From NCBI RefSeq assembly GCF_022761015.1, contig NZ_JAKWJQ010000004.1:372001-436000 (forward strand): 64,000 nt of DNA, read 5' to 3'. Positions within the stretch are counted from its first letter, which is position 1. Each line of letters starts with the position of its first letter. The DNA is from Humibacter sp. RRB41. GTDB lineage: Bacteria > Actinomycetota > Actinomycetes > Actinomycetales > Microbacteriaceae. The notes under the pieces are model-generated. The model worked only from the letters and a program-made list of their open reading frames with translations. It did no database searches and was not told where the DNA came from. The translations under genes were made by a program, and so were the position numbers. Shown here one piece after another: positions 4,628 to 63,042 of the stretch.

Positions 4628-7015
<2,388 letters not shown>

Positions 7016-7121
7016 CGTGTCTCCCTCTCGCCTGAGGTCACGGCAACGGCTGCGACAACGGCGCACGGATGCCCGCACCTCGCCGCGTCGCGCGTCCCAG
7101 CGCTCGCCGGTGGCATCCAGG

Positions 7122-8735
7122 CTATCGGGGGACGTCGGTGCGAGGCGGTATCGCCGATGGCGAGGAACCCGTGACATCCTCCTCTTCCGGCACAGCCTGA
7201 TCCTCGAAGAAGAACCTGGAGATCGCGGCCCGCGCCCGATCGGATGCGTGCAGCCGGCCACGCTCATCCGGCCGCGCCAGGTACGGCTGCTGAACGGCGG
7301 GGGTGCGGAGCCTGCGGCGAGCGTGGTCGTCGACCCGCCGGTGCCCCTCGACGTACTCGCCACCGGGCATCCGCACGATGCGCCCCGTCTCGTAACCGTG
7401 CAGGAGGATGCCCTGGTCCCGCTTCTGCAGCCCGAGACAGACGCGACGCGCGATGAAGAAGGCGACGGGCGGCCCGACCACCACGGCCACCTGGTAGAAG
7501 GCGACGACCGATTCGACGGCCAGCCGGAAGTGGGTCGCGACAAGGTCCGCGCTCGCAGCTCCCCAGAGCGCGCCGAAGAACACGATCGAGGCGACTCCGA
7601 TCGCGGTCCTGGTCGCCGCGTACCTGGGGCGGACGAGCAGGTGGTGCTCGGAGGAATCGCCGGTGACCCATTCCTCGAAGAACGGATATCCCAGCACTCC
7701 CACGAGGAAGGCTCCGACCACGAAAAGAGGAACGAGGATCGCGAGACTCCACGTGTGGCCGAGCCAGACGAACTCCCAACCCGGCGGAACCAGACGCAGC
7801 GCGCCGTCGAGGAACCCGGTGTACCAGTCGGGTTGGCTTCCGGCGGATGCGTTTCCCGGCGAGGACGGCCCGTAGAGCCAGACCGGGTCGATCGTCACCA
7901 CGGCGGACAGCATCACAAGTGCCGCCGTCACGACGGCAAGGGTGCCGGCCGACCGCGCAGCGTGGTTCGGCCAGAGCGGCAACCCGACGATCACCCGTTC
8001 GGTGCGCCCTTCGCCGGCGAACTGCGCCGGCTTGTTCAGATAGGAGGTGCGGGCACGCAGCGCGAGCAGAACGATCAGCAGCACCGGAACGAGGGCGACG
8101 TGAACCGGGTAGAGGTGCTCGATGATGTCGCCGGGGAACTGTCCACCGAACAACAGGGTCGACAGCCACGTGCCTACCACAGGGATCGCCAGCACGATGC
8201 CCTCGACGATGCGCAGCCCGGTGCCCGACAGCATGTCGTCGGGCAGCGCGTACCCGCTCCATCCGCCGAGCAGCGCGATGATCAGGATGCCGAACAGCAG
8301 CACCCACGAGAACCGTCGCGGCCGACGGAACGCCCCGGTGAAGAACATCACGAGAAGCTGCAGCATGATCGCGGCAGGAAGCAGCAGCGCCGCCCAGTGG
8401 TGCGCCTGACGAAGCAGCAGGCCGCCGCGCACGTCGAACGAGACGTTCACGGTGGACTCGAGCGCCTTCGACATGGTCGCGCCCTGCAACGGCAGATAGG
8501 AGCCGCGATAGGTCACCTGCGTGCTCGAAGGCGCGTAGAAGAACATCAGGACGAATCCGGTCACGAACAGCACGATCACGCAGGCGAGCGCGACGACACC
8601 GAACAGGTTGGTCCAGTGCACGGGCGCCTTGCGACGTCTCAGCTCATCCCGCAGAGCGAGAGCCCTGCGCCCCGCGCCGGACCGGCGAGCGGCCGACGCG
8701 AGACGATCGGTGAGGGAACCGCGAACTGCACGCAT
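7122..8735 (-). CDS. qcrB: ubiquinol/menaquinol-cytochrome c reductase cytochrome b subunit, stand-alone copy
   Basis: 537 residues, the usual length for actinobacterial QcrB. The N-terminal half carries b-heme histidine pairs in RQAHHWAALLL (112-113) and EHLYPVHVALVP. Eight or more membrane helices are visible, and the acidic, charged C-terminal tail is typical of actinobacterial proteins. In the respiratory bc1 complex QcrB oxidises menaquinol with QcrA and QcrC. Neither qcrA, qcrC nor ctaE is beside it, so this is probably a second copy outside the main qcrCAB cluster, with an unknown partner. The ATG at 8735 has a strong GGAGG site, and that site is part of an 11-bp inverted repeat. Confidence 0.88.
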   Translation of the reverse strand: MRAVRGSLTDRLASAARRSGAGRRALALRDELRRRKAPVHWTNLFGVVALACVIVLFVTGFVLMFFYAPSSTQVTYRGSYLPLQGATMSKALESTVNVSFDVRGGLLLRQAHHWAALLLPAAIMLQLLVMFFTGAFRRPRRFSWVLLFGILIIALLGGWSGYALPDDMLSGTGLRIVEGIVLAIPVVGTWLSTLLFGGQFPGDIIEHLYPVHVALVPVLLIVLLALRARTSYLNKPAQFAGEGRTERVIVGLPLWPNHAARSAGTLAVVTAALVMLSAVVTIDPVWLYGPSSPGNASAGSQPDWYTGFLDGALRLVPPGWEFVWLGHTWSLAILVPLFVVGAFLVGVLGYPFFEEWVTGDSSEHHLLVRPRYAATRTAIGVASIVFFGALWGAASADLVATHFRLAVESVVAFYQVAVVVGPPVAFFIARRVCLGLQKRDQGILLHGYETGRIVRMPGGEYVEGHRRVDDHARRRLRTPAVQQPYLARPDERGRLHASDRARAAISRFFFEDQAVPEEEDVTGSSPSAIPPRTDVPR

Positions 8736-8740
8736 GACGT

Positions 8741-8776
8741 GCCTCCTGTCTCATTGATGAAGACAAGACAGGAGGC
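8741..8776 (-). promoter_or_regulatory. hairpin sequestering the qcrB ribosome-binding site
   Basis: A perfect 11-bp inverted repeat, GCCTCCTGTCT (8741-8751) and AGACAGGAGGC (8766-8776), with a 14-nt loop. In the qcrB mRNA the 3' arm contains the Shine-Dalgarno GGAGG, five nucleotides before the start codon, and the 5' arm is its exact complement. No U tract follows on the minus strand, so it is not a standard terminator for the upstream helR. Translation control or protein binding are the likely roles. Confidence 0.65.
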
Positions 8777-8850
8777 GTCTTTGTGACATTTCGCGCCGGG
8801 TGCGCGGTGGGCGGAGGTGTTCGGCGCGCGGCGGGCGGCGCTCCGGTCGC

Positions 8851-11049
8851 TCAGTCGCTCGTCAGAACGACGAGTCGCCCGGTCGCACGGGTCATCGCCA
8901 CGTAACGGTCCACAGCCCCTTCGATCCCTGTCCCGAACGATTGCGGGTCCACGAGCACCACGAGGTCGAACTCGAGCCCCTTGACGTACTCGGGTGCGAG
9001 CGACCGCACGCGCGGCGTCGGTGCGAAGTCGGGATCGCCGATGACGCACGCGATGCCCTCGTCGTGTTCCGTCAGCCAGGCATCCAGTGTCGCGTCCAGG
9101 TCGGAGACCGGGCCGCGCACCACCGGGAGTCCCGTGCTGCGAATGGAGATCGGCACGTTCGCGTCGGGGATGACGGCCCGGATGACCGGTGCGGCCTCGG
9201 TCATCACCTCTTCCGGCGTGCGGTAGTTGATGCTCAGCGTGGCCATCGTCACGTCTGTGAGGCCGATCCGCACGAGGCGCTCCTTCCACGTCTCGGTGAA
9301 CCCGTGCCGAGCCTGCGCCCGATCGCCGACGATCGTGAAGCTGCGGGACGGGCAGCGCAGCAGCAGCATCCGCCACTCGGCATCCGTGAGCTCCTGAGCC
9401 TCGTCGACGATGACGTGGGCGAACGGGCCGGCGAGGAGGTCGGAGTCGACGCGCGGCAGGGCCGCCTCGTCGACGAGCGTGTTCTGCGTGTCCTGCTCGC
9501 GGAGCATCCACATCAGCTTCATCTCGCTGTCGTCGTCTTCGATCAGGTGGTCGATGACCCGCGCCCGCTCCTCGTTCTCGGCAGCGAGCGTCGCTTCGCG
9601 GCGGCGGGCTCGCTGTGCAGCCTCGGGATCGCCGATCCGCTGGCGGGCGGCATCGAGGTAGGGCAGGTCCGAGACGGTCCACGCGCGGGCATCCTCACGC
9701 TGCAGCAGGCGGATGTCGTCGGCCGACAGCCAGGGCGCGCACAGCCGCAGGTAGGCGGGCACCGACCACAGATCGCCGACGACTCCTGCAGGGTCTAGCA
9801 GCGGCCACGCCCGAGCGAAGGTGCCGGCCAGCTCGTCGCTGCGAACCAGCTCCCTGCGGATCAGGTGGGGAGGGGCATCCTCGTCGTCGATCTGGTCGAT
9901 CAGGATCTCCAGCAGAGCCTCCCAGACCTGATCGCGTGCGTCGTTGTGGGCAAGAGACGCCTCAGCCGATTCGAACGCCTCTGCCCACTCTGCGGCACCG
10001 ACCTCGAGGTCACCCCACTCCGTCTCGATCTGAACGGCGGCGGTCGGCGGTTGCTCGTAATACGCGACAGCGGCGTCGATCGCGTCCACAAGGCGAGCGG
10101 ATGCCTTCAGCCGCGCCACGTCCGGCTTCCGTTCCTCCGACGCCGAAGCGCCCTCCGGAACGAGTCCGCGCAATGTGCAGATCTGCACGCTCTCCTCGCC
10201 GAGACCAGGGAGCACATCGTCGACGTAGGCGAGATAGGCGGGGTTCGGGCCGACGAAGAGCACCCCGCCCCCTCCGTGCGTGAGCCGGGGCTGCGAGTAG
10301 AGGAGGTAGGCCGCCCGGTAGAGGGCGACGACGGTCTTGCCGGTGCCCGGACCGCCGTCGACGACGAGCGCACCGCGGGCTCCGGCGCGGATGATGGCAT
10401 CCTGATCCGACTCGATCGTGCTGAGCACATCGCGCATGCGGGCGGAACGGCTGCTGCCGAGGCTCGCGATGAAGGCCGATTGGTCGTCCAGCGCCGCGCG
10501 GCTCTCGAGGCCTTGGGCCGTGAACGCCTCGTCCCAGTAGTCGGTGATGCGGCCGCGCGTCCATCGATATCTGCGGCGACTGACGAGTCCCATCGGGTTC
10601 GCGTGCGTCGCGGCGAAATAGGGCTCGGCGGCCGGCGCGCGCCAGTCGATCAGCAGCTGGCGTCCCTCGCTGTCGGCAAGGCCGAGACGGCCGATGTAGA
10701 CGGGCTCCCCGTCGCTCTGCCGGACGACGCGACCCAGTGTCAGATCGAGGCCGAAACGTCCCAGAAGCCGTAGCTGCGAGGTGAGGCGGTGGATCTCGAT
10801 GTCCCGGTCCATCGCCTCCTGACCGCCGCGTTCCGCCTGCAGACGGAGCACGGCGAGTCGTTCGGTGAGCTCGTCGATCTGCTGCCGAAGGCTGTCGCCG
10901 ATGGCGGCGAAGTGCCGTCGATCGCGGGCGATGAGTGCGGGGTCGGCTTTCGCCGCGAGTCGGTCGGGAAGGTCGAACGCGTCGGTCACGAGGGTCAAAC
11001 GGGCTCCGATGTCGAGAGGATGCCGCGGCAGGCGAGCGCGGCGAGGCAC
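8851..11049 (-). CDS. helR: RNA polymerase recycling helicase-like ATPase, HelR/HelD family
   Basis: 732 residues with superfamily 1 helicase motifs: Walker A GGPGTGKTVVALYRAAY (about 230), VDEAQELTDAEW (about 547), GDRAQARHGF, NYRTPEEVM, KGLEFDLVVL and a C-terminal YVAMTRATGRLVVL. The N-terminal part has a coiled-coil-like segment (about 20-70) as in HelD proteins, which reach into the RNA polymerase channels. HelR displaces rifamycins from RNA polymerase and gives tolerance; HelD recycles stalled polymerase. The GTG at 11049 has a GAGGGAGA site 6 nt upstream. A rifamycin-associated-element-like palindrome begins 17 bp before the start, which favours HelR over generic HelD. The qcrB gene lies 115 bp downstream. 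Confidence 0.85.
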   Translation of the reverse strand: MPRRARLPRHPLDIGARLTLVTDAFDLPDRLAAKADPALIARDRRHFAAIGDSLRQQIDELTERLAVLRLQAERGGQEAMDRDIEIHRLTSQLRLLGRFGLDLTLGRVVRQSDGEPVYIGRLGLADSEGRQLLIDWRAPAAEPYFAATHANPMGLVSRRRYRWTRGRITDYWDEAFTAQGLESRAALDDQSAFIASLGSSRSARMRDVLSTIESDQDAIIRAGARGALVVDGGPGTGKTVVALYRAAYLLYSQPRLTHGGGGVLFVGPNPAYLAYVDDVLPGLGEESVQICTLRGLVPEGASASEERKPDVARLKASARLVDAIDAAVAYYEQPPTAAVQIETEWGDLEVGAAEWAEAFESAEASLAHNDARDQVWEALLEILIDQIDDEDAPPHLIRRELVRSDELAGTFARAWPLLDPAGVVGDLWSVPAYLRLCAPWLSADDIRLLQREDARAWTVSDLPYLDAARQRIGDPEAAQRARRREATLAAENEERARVIDHLIEDDDSEMKLMWMLREQDTQNTLVDEAALPRVDSDLLAGPFAHVIVDEAQELTDAEWRMLLLRCPSRSFTIVGDRAQARHGFTETWKERLVRIGLTDVTMATLSINYRTPEEVMTEAAPVIRAVIPDANVPISIRSTGLPVVRGPVSDLDATLDAWLTEHDEGIACVIGDPDFAPTPRVRSLAPEYVKGLEFDLVVLVDPQSFGTGIEGAVDRYVAMTRATGRLVVLTSD

Positions 11050-23662: not shown

Positions 23663-24438
23663 CCGGCAGCATCGTGCTGAGCGTCGCGATCTGCATGGCT
23701 GCGCCGGTACCAGTCAACGCAGATGACCGCGATTGCACTGCGTTCGAGCAGACTACTGGTGGGTGCTCCACCACCGGCACCAACGCCGGCGACCACGTCG
23801 ACGTCGGCGGCCACACCGGCTCCAACGGCACCGGCACAGACGCCACGACGGGCGACGACTCCGACGACTCATCCACGCCGACGACCCCGAAGGACCGCTG
23901 CTCGACAGCAGGCAACAGGTGTCTCGGTGCGTCGGGATACGCCGTCACGTATCCCGACGTCGGAATGTCCGACCTGGCCTCCTTCTACCCCGCGCGCCCA
24001 ACGGTCGCGGGGGAGCCGAACGGCTGGGCGGTGATCGGGCTCGACGCCAACTTCGTGGCGAGCGCGAAGGCGCACACGGCATCCGGTCCGCTGCTCGGAG
24101 TGCAGGCCGACGTGCGGTTCACGCCCGTGACGTTCCGCTGGGGCTATGGGGACGGCATCCGCTCGACAACGAGCACCGGCGGTCGCACCTGGAAGGCACT
24201 CGGAGTTCCGGAGTTCAGCCCCACCGCGACGAGCCACATCTATGCGAAGTCCGGAAGTTACACGCTCGATGTCGCGGTGATCTACACCGCGCAGTTCCGG
24301 GTCGGCGGCGGCGCGTGGCGCGATATCCCCGGCACGCTGAGCCTGTCTGCGCCGACGTCGACCATCGTCGCCGGCGACGCTGCGACCGTACTCGTGCAGC
24401 GAACATGCAAGAGCGATCCGCACGCTGTCGGATGCTGA
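23638..24438 (+). CDS. secreted protein with PKD-like domain
   Basis: 266 residues. A signal peptide (RRHLLAGSIVLSVAICMAAP) is followed by a Thr/Gly/Asp-rich low-complexity linker (about 45-85), then a region with FTPVTFRWGYGDG, FSPTATSHIYAKSGSYTLDVAVIY and a C-terminal Cys pair. W-x-[FY]-G-D-G plus HxYxxxGxYTV is the PKD-type Ig-like fold signature, so it is likely a surface or exported binding protein. It overlaps the lipoprotein gene by 25 bp in another frame; the two are probably translated together and act on the same outer surface. The binding target is unknown. Confidence 0.75.
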   Translation: MGTRRHLLAGSIVLSVAICMAAPVPVNADDRDCTAFEQTTGGCSTTGTNAGDHVDVGGHTGSNGTGTDATTGDDSDDSSTPTTPKDRCSTAGNRCLGASGYAVTYPDVGMSDLASFYPARPTVAGEPNGWAVIGLDANFVASAKAHTASGPLLGVQADVRFTPVTFRWGYGDGIRSTTSTGGRTWKALGVPEFSPTATSHIYAKSGSYTLDVAVIYTAQFRVGGGAWRDIPGTLSLSAPTSTIVAGDAATVLVQRTCKSDPHAVGC

Positions 24439-26423: not shown

Positions 26424-26456
26424 CGAGAGCCGGGCGTCCATCGCGCCCGGCTCTCG
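26424..26456 (+). terminator. strong hairpin terminator after the HtrA gene
   Basis: Perfect 13-bp stem CGAGAGCCGGGCG / CGCCCGGCTCTCG with a 7-nt loop, 16 bp past the protease stop. No long T tract follows, as is common in GC-rich actinobacteria. Confidence 0.75.
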
Positions 26457-35081: not shown

Positions 35082-35182
35082 CCGACGATCGTACCGGCGC
35101 CCCGGTGCAGGAACTCTGAGGCCCCAAACGCAGGATGCCGTCGACCTGACGGCCGACGGCATCCGTTACCGGGAGATGCGGA

Positions 35183-36227: not shown

Positions 36228-38126
36228 GTGCCGCGCCAGCATCCGCTAGCGCGAACGCCGCATCCCGACGGTGCCGAAAGCGAGGCGGGCCGATCGCGAA
36301 CTTCAGCGATTCGGCTGTTCGAGGCGACCACGGTTTCGGGGGTATGGCGCGTGCAAGATGAGCCGCAGGGTTCCGCCACGGGGGGTGTCGAAACGTCGGC
36401 CGGCGGCGTGGACGCCGCCGACCGTGAGGCGGCACCGGCGGAGGCCACTCTCCCCGTCGTCCGAGTGCGAGTGGGCAAGGCGTCGGATGCCCGGCGCGGC
36501 TCTCGCCCACGAGCAACGGGTGCTGCGGCGTACACCTCGGTCGTACCCGAAACCGCGTCGGATGACGCGCACATCGCGGTCGCGACGGGTCCGCGCGGCT
36601 CGCGTGGGGCATCCCGAACGAGGGCGACCAAGGGCAGCGGCGTCGTCGATCGCGCAGATGCCATCGTGCAGGCCGAGGCTTCCACCGCCACCCTCCTCGC
36701 GCCCGAGGCAACCTCCGATGGCCCCGTGAGCGCTCCCGCCCCCGTGGCGAAGACGGCCGCTGCGCCGGTCGTCGAGGTTCCGGAACCGATCGTGGCGCCG
36801 GCCGATGAATCCCCAGCCGGCACGTCGCAGGACGAGGACACTGACGTGGACGTGGACACCGGGCCGATGCCCGCTCAGTCCTCTTCCGTCGATGAGAACA
36901 CCGGCTCGCGTCAGCGCATCACTCTGTTCGGACGGCGGAGACGCGCCGCAGCAGCTGCTGCCGCCGCGGCGGCAGCAGCTGAGCAGGAGAGCGGCGATGA
37001 GGGGTCGCGCCTTCTCGCCGATCTCGTGCGGGAGAGCGAGTCCTCCGGCGATGCTGTTGGGCATCGGCAGGTCGACTCCGCCGCCGCGCCTGCGCCAGCG
37101 GGCGCCACCGACGTCGGGGCGCCCGACTGGCTGATCGAGCAGGTTCTCGTCTCCGACGACCGCGACGAGGCGCTCGGTGGAGCATCCGTCGCGCCGTACG
37201 TCGAAGAGACCGTGGACCGCGCGAAGATCGCGCGTGAGCGTGCAGGGGCGACCGAGCTCGAGACGCAGGTGGACGAAGACGCCGAGTCGGCATCCCCTCA
37301 GAGAGCGAGACGTGCGGCGACCACGAGGGTCTTCCCGGCCGCACGTCCGGCGCCGGCCGCGACGGCTCCCGTCGTGCTCGCAGTGAACGGCTTGCACAAG
37401 CGCTACGGAGACGTGGTCGCCGTGGACGGCGTGAGCCTGAGCATCCGCGCCGGTTCGCTGTACGGCATCGTGGGGCCCAACGGTGCGGGTAAGACGACGA
37501 CGCTCTCGATCATCACCGGTCTGCTTCGCGCTGACTCGGGTTCCGTGTTCGTCAATGGCGTGGATGCTCGCAAGCATCCGCGCGATGCCAAGCGCGCGAT
37601 CGGCGTGCTGCCCGATCACCTGCGCACGTTCGACCGGCTCACCGGCGCCCAGCTGCTGTACTACGCGGGCACGCTGCGTGGGCTGGATGCCGCGACCACC
37701 CGCCAGCGCTCCGCCGATCTCGCGGCCGCGTTCGGCATCGAGGATGCCATGGGCCGCCTCGTCGCCGACTACTCGGCAGGCATGACCAAGAAGGTGTCGC
37801 TTGCGGCGGCGATGATCCACTCGCCGCGTCTGCTGGTGCTCGACGAGCCGTTCGAGGGCGTCGACCCGGTCTCGGCGGCGACGGTCACTGGCATCCTGCA
37901 GCGCTATGTGGATGCCGGTGGAACGGTGCTGCTCTCCAGTCACGGTATGGATCTGGTGCAGCGCATCTGCGACAGCGTCGCGATCATCATCGGCGGCGTG
38001 GTGCTGGATGCCGGCCCCGTCGATCAGGTGCGCGGTGAGAAGACGCTGGAAGACCACTTCGTGGAACTCGCGGGCGGGCGCAAGGCCGCGGAGGGACTGG
38101 AATGGTTGCACAGTTTCTCCGACTGA
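36228..38126 (+). CDS. ABC exporter ATP-binding protein with ~380-residue disordered N-terminal extension
   Basis: 632 residues from the GTG at 36228; a GTG at 36351 with GGGGG 8 nt upstream is a serious alternative. Residues 1-380 are Ala/Asp/Glu/Thr-rich, without predicted fold, and contain RRRR plus twelve alanines. The ABC domain is at the C terminus: Walker A GIVGPNGAGKTTTLSI, signature-region YSAGMTKKVSLAAAM, Walker B LLVLDEPFEGVD, and LLSSHGMDLVQRIC. It is of the ABC-2 exporter (daunorubicin/CcmA-like) class. The stop overlaps the permease gene by 25 bp. Typical ATPases of this class are 230-320 residues, so the long acidic tail is unusual; cytoplasmic regulatory binding is a guess. 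Confidence 0.88.
   Translation: MPRQHPLARTPHPDGAESEAGRSRTSAIRLFEATTVSGVWRVQDEPQGSATGGVETSAGGVDAADREAAPAEATLPVVRVRVGKASDARRGSRPRATGAAAYTSVVPETASDDAHIAVATGPRGSRGASRTRATKGSGVVDRADAIVQAEASTATLLAPEATSDGPVSAPAPVAKTAAAPVVEVPEPIVAPADESPAGTSQDEDTDVDVDTGPMPAQSSSVDENTGSRQRITLFGRRRRAAAAAAAAAAAAEQESGDEGSRLLADLVRESESSGDAVGHRQVDSAAAPAPAGATDVGAPDWLIEQVLVSDDRDEALGGASVAPYVEETVDRAKIARERAGATELETQVDEDAESASPQRARRAATTRVFPAARPAPAATAPVVLAVNGLHKRYGDVVAVDGVSLSIRAGSLYGIVGPNGAGKTTTLSIITGLLRADSGSVFVNGVDARKHPRDAKRAIGVLPDHLRTFDRLTGAQLLYYAGTLRGLDAATTRQRSADLAAAFGIEDAMGRLVADYSAGMTKKVSLAAAMIHSPRLLVLDEPFEGVDPVSAATVTGILQRYVDAGGTVLLSSHGMDLVQRICDSVAIIIGGVVLDAGPVDQVRGEKTLEDHFVELAGGRKAAEGLEWLHSFSD
36952..36981. repeat. 30-bp perfect palindrome inside the poly-alanine codons
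   Basis: CAGCTGCTGCCGCCG (36952-36966) is followed without spacer by its exact complement CGGCGGCAGCAGCTG (36967-36981). It encodes most of a run of twelve alanines that uses GCA, GCT, GCC and GCG in mirrored order. Such a palindrome can form a hairpin in DNA or mRNA. Confidence 0.9.
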
Positions 38127-62923: not shown

Positions 62924-63042
62924 CAGCAGGTATATCAGGCTAACACCGGATGTGCGTCGCCCGTCGGCGGGCGACGTCGCACGGTGAAACGGGTGGGACG
63001 GAACCACCTCGGTTCCGTCCCACCCGTAGGGTGCCCGAACAG

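Follow-up and report, generated by a model that had tools for sequence, protein, structure and literature searches.

An ECF41-type promoter motif overlapping the 5' arm of a hairpin on the Shine-Dalgarno region of a stand-alone QcrB-like gene in Humibacter

The window, by which we mean the whole 64,000-nucleotide stretch of Humibacter sp. RRB41 DNA analysed here, carries a QcrB-like cytochrome b gene preceded on the same strand by helR, and the gap between the two genes holds a perfect inverted repeat together with a promoter motif. The features are listed below, with the basis of each assignment in brackets.

4628-7030, minus strand: gene for a UvrA-like ABC protein, flanking the cytochrome b gene opposite helR
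7122-8735, minus strand: stand-alone QcrB-like cytochrome b gene, 537 aa (open reading frame; PF13631/PF00033; NF050120 above cut-off; histidine positions)
8733-8735, minus strand: ATG start codon of the QcrB-like gene, with an in-frame TGA 18 nt upstream (open reading frame and sequence)
8742-8747, minus strand: Shine-Dalgarno sequence (SD) AGGAGG, 6 nt before the ATG (sequence)
8741-8751, minus strand: 3' arm of the hairpin, AGACAGGAGGC, covering the SD (inverted-repeat search and fold)
8752-8754, minus strand: predicted transcription start between the arms, 8-10 nt behind the -10 element, giving a leader of about 17-19 nt
8762-8765, minus strand: ECF41-type -10 element TGTC (sequence and motif search)
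8766-8776, minus strand: 5' arm of the hairpin, GCCTCCTGTCT (inverted-repeat search)
8766-8781, minus strand: 16-nt promoter spacer, with the 5' arm as its final 11 nt (8776-8766) (sequence)
8782-8788, minus strand: ECF41-type -35 element TGTCACA (sequence and motif search; consensus from PMC3426412)
8851-11049, minus strand: helR, the codirectional upstream gene (NF041254, 1201 bits, cut-off 750)

The product of the cytochrome b gene passes the NCBIfam model for actinobacterial QcrB (NF050120; 545.6 bits, cut-off 500), but not all four heme-ligand histidines are present. One pair is kept, and the other, the second histidine of each heme-ligand helix, is replaced by Gln and Arg. Among 58 orthologs the helix B position is Gln in 56 and His in 2; at the helix D position 55 carry Arg, 1 carries His and 2 carry other residues, and the remaining two histidines occur in all 58; in contrast, 12 canonical copies keep all four histidines, as does L011, the most distant "ortholog". 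The orthologs are the best-scoring copies together with L009-L011 and the canonical ones are lower-scoring copies, of which L002 was checked for an adjoining QcrA; L008 (same contig as L017) and the relative G116 (59% identity) were left out. The paralog clade comprises the window gene (7122-8735, minus strand), L001, L003, L009-L031 and L079-L111. By bc1 numbering, we take the lost pair to be the heme b_H ligands and the kept pair those of b_L, and loss of these presumed b_H ligands would exclude an ordinary Q cycle. A narrow literature search gave no QcrB paralog lacking heme b_H among the matches listed. By NCBIfam the window protein is still annotated as the cytochrome b subunit of bc1. 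An earlier note on this DNA had described a stand-alone QcrB whose partner genes are absent; this holds beside the gene, where QcrA and QcrC are not in the operon and the neighbours are helR and the UvrA-like gene, but elsewhere in the genome a second QcrB has QcrA beside it.

The arms of the inverted repeat (8741-8751/8766-8776) are 11 nt long, 100% complementary and separated by a 14-nt loop, so the perfect 11-bp hairpin claimed in the earlier note is confirmed, as are its hiding of the SD (AGGAGG at 8747-8742 lies inside the 3' arm) and its position in the 3' space of helR, directly behind the stop codon at 8851-8853 and on the same strand; the distance from SD to ATG, given there as five bases, is six. 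When wobble pairs are counted, the stem in minus-strand RNA has 14 pairs and an 8-nt loop. A 161-nt read-through RNA (8850-8690) was predicted to be more stable than each of 200 shuffles, while an RNA beginning at 8754 has no such stem (fold z +0.45). The note had also judged the repeat too exact for chance at this place. Perfect inverted repeats of at least 11 nt with loops of 3-40 nt number 7 in the window against a mean of 2.0 and a largest count of 4 in 30 dinucleotide shuffles, and because such repeats are over-represented here the mere existence of one is weak evidence; what exceeds chance is that it sits on the ribosome-binding site and recurs in relatives, and to that extent the judgement stood. 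The six further repeats of this kind, with loops of 4-21 nt, lie at 751-793, 23931-23958, 26426-26454, 35133-35164, 36954-36979 and 62995-63021. The hairpin was also considered as an intrinsic terminator of helR and rejected, as no terminator-like site was found in 8600-9100 and no T-run lies behind the stem.

In the part of Wecke et al. (2012, PMC3426412) used here, the ECF41 promoter consensus is given as TGTCACA-n16-CGTC, and 5' RACE in two species placed the start at a G with a leader of 22/23 nt. The window promoter reads TGTCACA-N16-TGTC, an exact agreement with the ECF41 form (TGTCACA, (C/T)GTC, spacer of 16 ± 1) with a spacer of 16, and on its motifs it is very probably of ECF41 type. 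Like the published promoters, it has the TGTCACA -35, the 16-nt spacer, a (C/T)GTC -10 and a short leader with an SD (PMC3426412). It differs from them in what it serves: the same part of that paper names COE genes as the only detectable ECF41 targets, plus the sigma gene if cotranscribed, whereas here the promoter stands before a QcrB-like gene, or before a pair of oxidoreductase and cytochrome b genes. The start at 8752-8754 is predicted from the ECF41 starts mapped in that study and from aligned ortholog leaders. As the 5' arm lies within the promoter spacer, RNA from the gene's own promoter should start between the arms and therefore lack the hairpin, which would then form only in RNA entering from upstream, such as helR read-through.

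The promoter motif accompanies the gene across genomes. TGTCAC(A/G)-N16-GTC recurs upstream of 25 orthologs, that of the window included, and a motif with exactly 16-nt spacing was found for 57 of the 58 orthologs against none of the 12 canonical qcrB loci. It lies at most 250 nt from the gene in 37 orthologs and about 510-1480 nt upstream in the other 20, where a partner gene starts in those loci that were examined. Other spacings between 8 and 25 occurred in 0-2 orthologs each, except for a spacing of 11 in 15 orthologs, which we read as the frequent CTGTC within the spacer. In the genome of the window, the strict motif has 8 sites against 1 for the reversed pattern, and over 18 genomes a slightly stricter motif gave 100 against 13 for the reversed control.

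Of the other seven sites in this genome, four are followed at 59-132 nt by matches to the SigX4 (ECF41-like) model, all of these matches under the family cut-off and the farthest (132 nt) partial. In 12 of 24 loci the cytochrome b gene has a member of the ECF41-sigma cluster no more than about 6 kb away (two of these members are partial open reading frames at the locus end), and the two cluster members that were checked both score above the TIGR02957 cut-off. No SigX4-like gene was seen beside the cytochrome b gene of the window, and in a tree of all but L049 of the genome's six such sigma proteins none grouped with the cytochrome-linked ones. The cytochrome b gene follows an NAD(P)/FAD oxidoreductase gene in 9 of 24 neighbourhoods; the oxidoreductase ortholog of the window's genome, about 128 kb away, has no ECF41 motif upstream. 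Among the matches listed by a narrow search on ECF41 and NADH dehydrogenase, no obvious link appeared, and an equally narrow one on ECF41 and cytochrome b listed a single paper. A recurrent cluster of an SDR-like protein, an ECF41 sigma factor, the oxidoreductase and cytochrome b is seen in L058, L059 and L060, where separate ECF41-type motifs precede the SDR-like gene and the oxidoreductase-cytochrome b pair.

Whether a spacer matches its own leader was assessed by comparing its duplex energy with its own SD region and with the SD regions of other members, with permutation. Over 34 de-duplicated orthologous promoters, own pairs gave -13.5 kcal/mol and pairs with other members' regions -10.8 kcal/mol, a difference (z -5.9) reached in 0 of 5000 permutations, whereas 54 de-duplicated other ECF41 promoters showed no own-pair excess (z -0.6, p 0.28). 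A qualifying start was present in 56 of the 57 orthologous promoters, and removal of near copies reduced these to 36, of which 34 were used; for the controls, which are motif sites in all loci of the analysis and include 40 regions picked from genome motif matches, the figures were 75, 55 and 54. In L022 and L084 the automatic choice of start codon took a later ATG. A position map peaked where the spacer and -10 meet positions -24 to -4 of the start codon (z -6.3), with overlapping spacer windows reaching -5.6, -35 windows -3.7 and all other cells between -2.6 and +2.2. The energy signal was present in each of three genome groups (p 0.02, 0.009 and 0.03), and the signal persisted with the sequence of the window left out. 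With near copies removed (n = 32), at least 7 perfect pairs occurred in 12 cases against 3.3 expected. Taken by genome group, the excess of such runs was significant in one genus only, with 10 of 16 members (p 0.0016), and gave p 0.18 and p 0.21 in the other two groups. In 4 of 34 cases no leader paired better with a spacer than its own (about 1 expected), and in 8 of 34 the own leader ranked within the best tenth (3.4 expected); strong hairpins are a minority of the family.

The paired letters themselves vary at the same place, as in CCTCCTGTCC/GGACAGGAGG (L087), CCCTGTCT/AGACAGGG (L080), CTGTCCGG/CCGGACAG (L013), CCCTGTCCGGTC/GACCGGATGGGG (L085, of which L118 is the larger copy) and AGATCT/AGATCT, and among the 12 strongest rows the arms are between 8 and 66 nt apart. 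The comparison of arms across relatives, which the earlier note had proposed as a check, did find covariation. On these comparisons the pairing covaries and is particular to the cytochrome b family, unlike the other ECF41 promoters examined in this analysis, where pairing between spacer and SD was not seen. Part of the complementarity stems from CTGTC in the spacer and AGGAGG in the leader, which have their own promoter and SD reasons. Even so, selection on spacer-SD pairing in this gene family appears likely.

In the window, helR ends 62 nt (stop codon to -35) before the promoter, and the SD was predicted to be unpaired with a probability of 0.44 in the own-promoter RNA against 0.0003 in the read-through RNA, the latter value being 0.25 with swapped spacers. 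Across the family, with upstream genes assigned by a crude GC3-based open reading frame rule, own-pair excess was z -4.9 under a codirectional upstream gene (n = 19; z -4.5 with n = 18, without the window sequence), z -1.3 under a divergent one (n = 13) and z -0.9 in codirectional controls (n = 17), although a direct test of excess energy gave no significant difference between codirectional and divergent members (p 0.125) and perfect runs of at least 7 occurred in 12 of 31 codirectional against 4 of 12 divergent members, in a count whose controls were drawn from the same loci. Predicted SD accessibility in the read-through RNA of the 19 codirectional members was 0.25 with the own spacer against 0.29 with swapped ones (p 0.23), and fell below 0.2 in 9 of 19 against 4 of 19. 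The drop in accessibility from short to long RNA was similar in the family (0.20, n = 42) and at other ECF41 promoters (0.16, n = 20), and was not larger in codirectional members (0.19, n = 25) than in the rest (0.23, n = 17) or in codirectional controls (0.27, n = 9). Family-wide masking of read-through, as measured by predicted SD accessibility, was therefore rejected for want of statistical support, and because these family tests were null our claim is limited to the covariation of the pairing and to the window.

The same null result suits the view that the complementarity is a coincidence, in which the spacer favours CTGTC(C/T) by the -10 and the leader favours (A/G)GACAGGAGG, the two match by accident and the hairpin is idle. 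CTGTCC or CTGTCT does precede the -10 in several other relatives' ECF41 promoters whose leaders do not match, and perfect 11-nt inverted repeats are common enough in the window. Yet the permutation retains both consensus elements and still gave the z of -5.9, the excess of perfect runs survived the removal of near copies, and other letters pair at the same place, CCCTGTCCGGTC/GACCGGATGGGG and AGATCT/AGATCT among them, all of which makes coincidence unlikely. A DNA operator, with a dimeric regulator binding the repeat across the -10 and the start site, would find the repeat in the classical operator place, straddling the -10 and the predicted start, and in the window, L021, L022 and L087 a gap of 14-15 nt separates its arms. 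We regard an operator as improbable, since the 3' arm tracks the SD and not a fixed distance and the arm sequences are too different for one protein; varied letters together with varied gaps better suit an RNA helix tied to the SD.

The earlier note had itself favoured translational control by an RNA switch or protein-bound hairpin, adding that a transcript starting downstream of the 5' arm would speak against it. For the gene's own mRNA this is not supported: the 5' arm falls within the spacer of an ECF41-type promoter, and the predicted start at 8752-8754 lies downstream of it. In a modified form, a regulated switch could act on the mRNA of a promoter further upstream, the ECF41 promoter then providing a second entry free of regulation, and the hairpin is indeed possible in any RNA starting upstream of 8776. 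A scan of 8600-9100 for sigma-70-like promoters found none, the arms lack the sequence conservation expected of a binding site, and Rfam at its gathering threshold matched one tmRNA and two tRNAs over the window and nothing at the hairpin; we give this form little credence, and a ligand- or protein-sensing switch is not supported. The lack of an Rfam match was also the reason for which a riboswitch or known cis-regulatory RNA was rejected at this site. Template switching at imperfect inverted repeats can produce near-perfect ones and might have perfected the arms without selection, and the 11 pairs of the window are the longest perfect run among the 57 promoters, but such an origin is highly improbable, as it should have hit the other ECF41 promoters too (z -0.6) and offers no reason of its own for a preference for the SD region.

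The reading that we prefer is a promoter embedded in a translation-blocking hairpin, in which the ECF41-type motif overlaps the 5' arm and the 3' arm covers the SD region. Transcripts from the ECF41 promoter would lack the 5' arm, leave the SD free and be translated, and helR read-through transcripts would carry both arms, fold and stay silent. Cytochrome b output would in this manner be tied to an ECF41 sigma factor and shielded from upstream transcription, and in some relatives the NAD(P)/FAD oxidoreductase and cytochrome b may be jointly under such control. We lean, by a small measure, towards this arrangement of a promoter inside an SD-masking hairpin, with silent read-through RNA and translatable ECF41-promoter RNA. 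That insulation from read-through is the function of the pairing we hold to be an evenly balanced proposition; an insulating function would probably apply to the window and a subset of the family. More tentative, and in our estimate just short of an even chance, is a family-wide, sigma-gated chromosomal device. An ECF41 promoter would have evolved within the 5' arm of the SD-masking hairpin, and a redox module centred on a QcrB paralog without the heme b_H site would be translated only from mRNA made with the stress sigma factor.

Comparable logic is found in mobile elements. In the transposase genes of IS10 and IS50 (Tn5), read-through RNA pairs across the initiation region and RNA from the own promoter cannot; the window gene, unlike these, does not belong to a mobile element, and its promoter is of another type. 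The closest parallel is phage T4, where read-through transcripts with a sequestered ribosome-binding site are described for gene e (lysozyme) and I-TevI (PMC3014915, in the part used here). As presented there, an alternative-sigma (T4 late) promoter lies in the DNA of the 5' part of the structure, and long transcripts hide the SD or AUG while short ones without the 5' part are well translated. The window shows the same arrangement, its promoter lying within the DNA for the 5' strand of the hairpin and the predicted start downstream. It departs from gene e in that the gene is a bacterial chromosomal one, the promoter of ECF41 type and the protein of respiratory type, and in that strong hairpins are confined to part of the family. 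A narrow search of the literature on read-through hairpins, covering titles and the beginnings of abstracts, gave no bacterial chromosomal case.

If the embedded promoter works as proposed, logic known from phage T4, and also from transposons, would protect an ordinary gene of a bacterium, and an apparent riboregulator hairpin may have a 5' arm that is never present in the gene's own mRNA. Such a device would be recognisable only from a joint reading of promoter and RNA structure. A conserved QcrB-like protein without the presumed heme b_H site would also enter the candidate ECF41 regulon, and both would become testable.

Two further arrangements of ECF41-type motifs were observed. In L022 (genome G303) the promoter is followed by a very short open reading frame that resembles the first residues of the oxidoreductase and lies just upstream of the cytochrome b gene, as would be left by a deletion of the partner gene that spared its start. 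In the genome of the window, L043/L044 and L046/L049 carry ECF41-type motifs as divergent pairs that overlap, the -35 of one motif lying inside the leader of the opposite gene.
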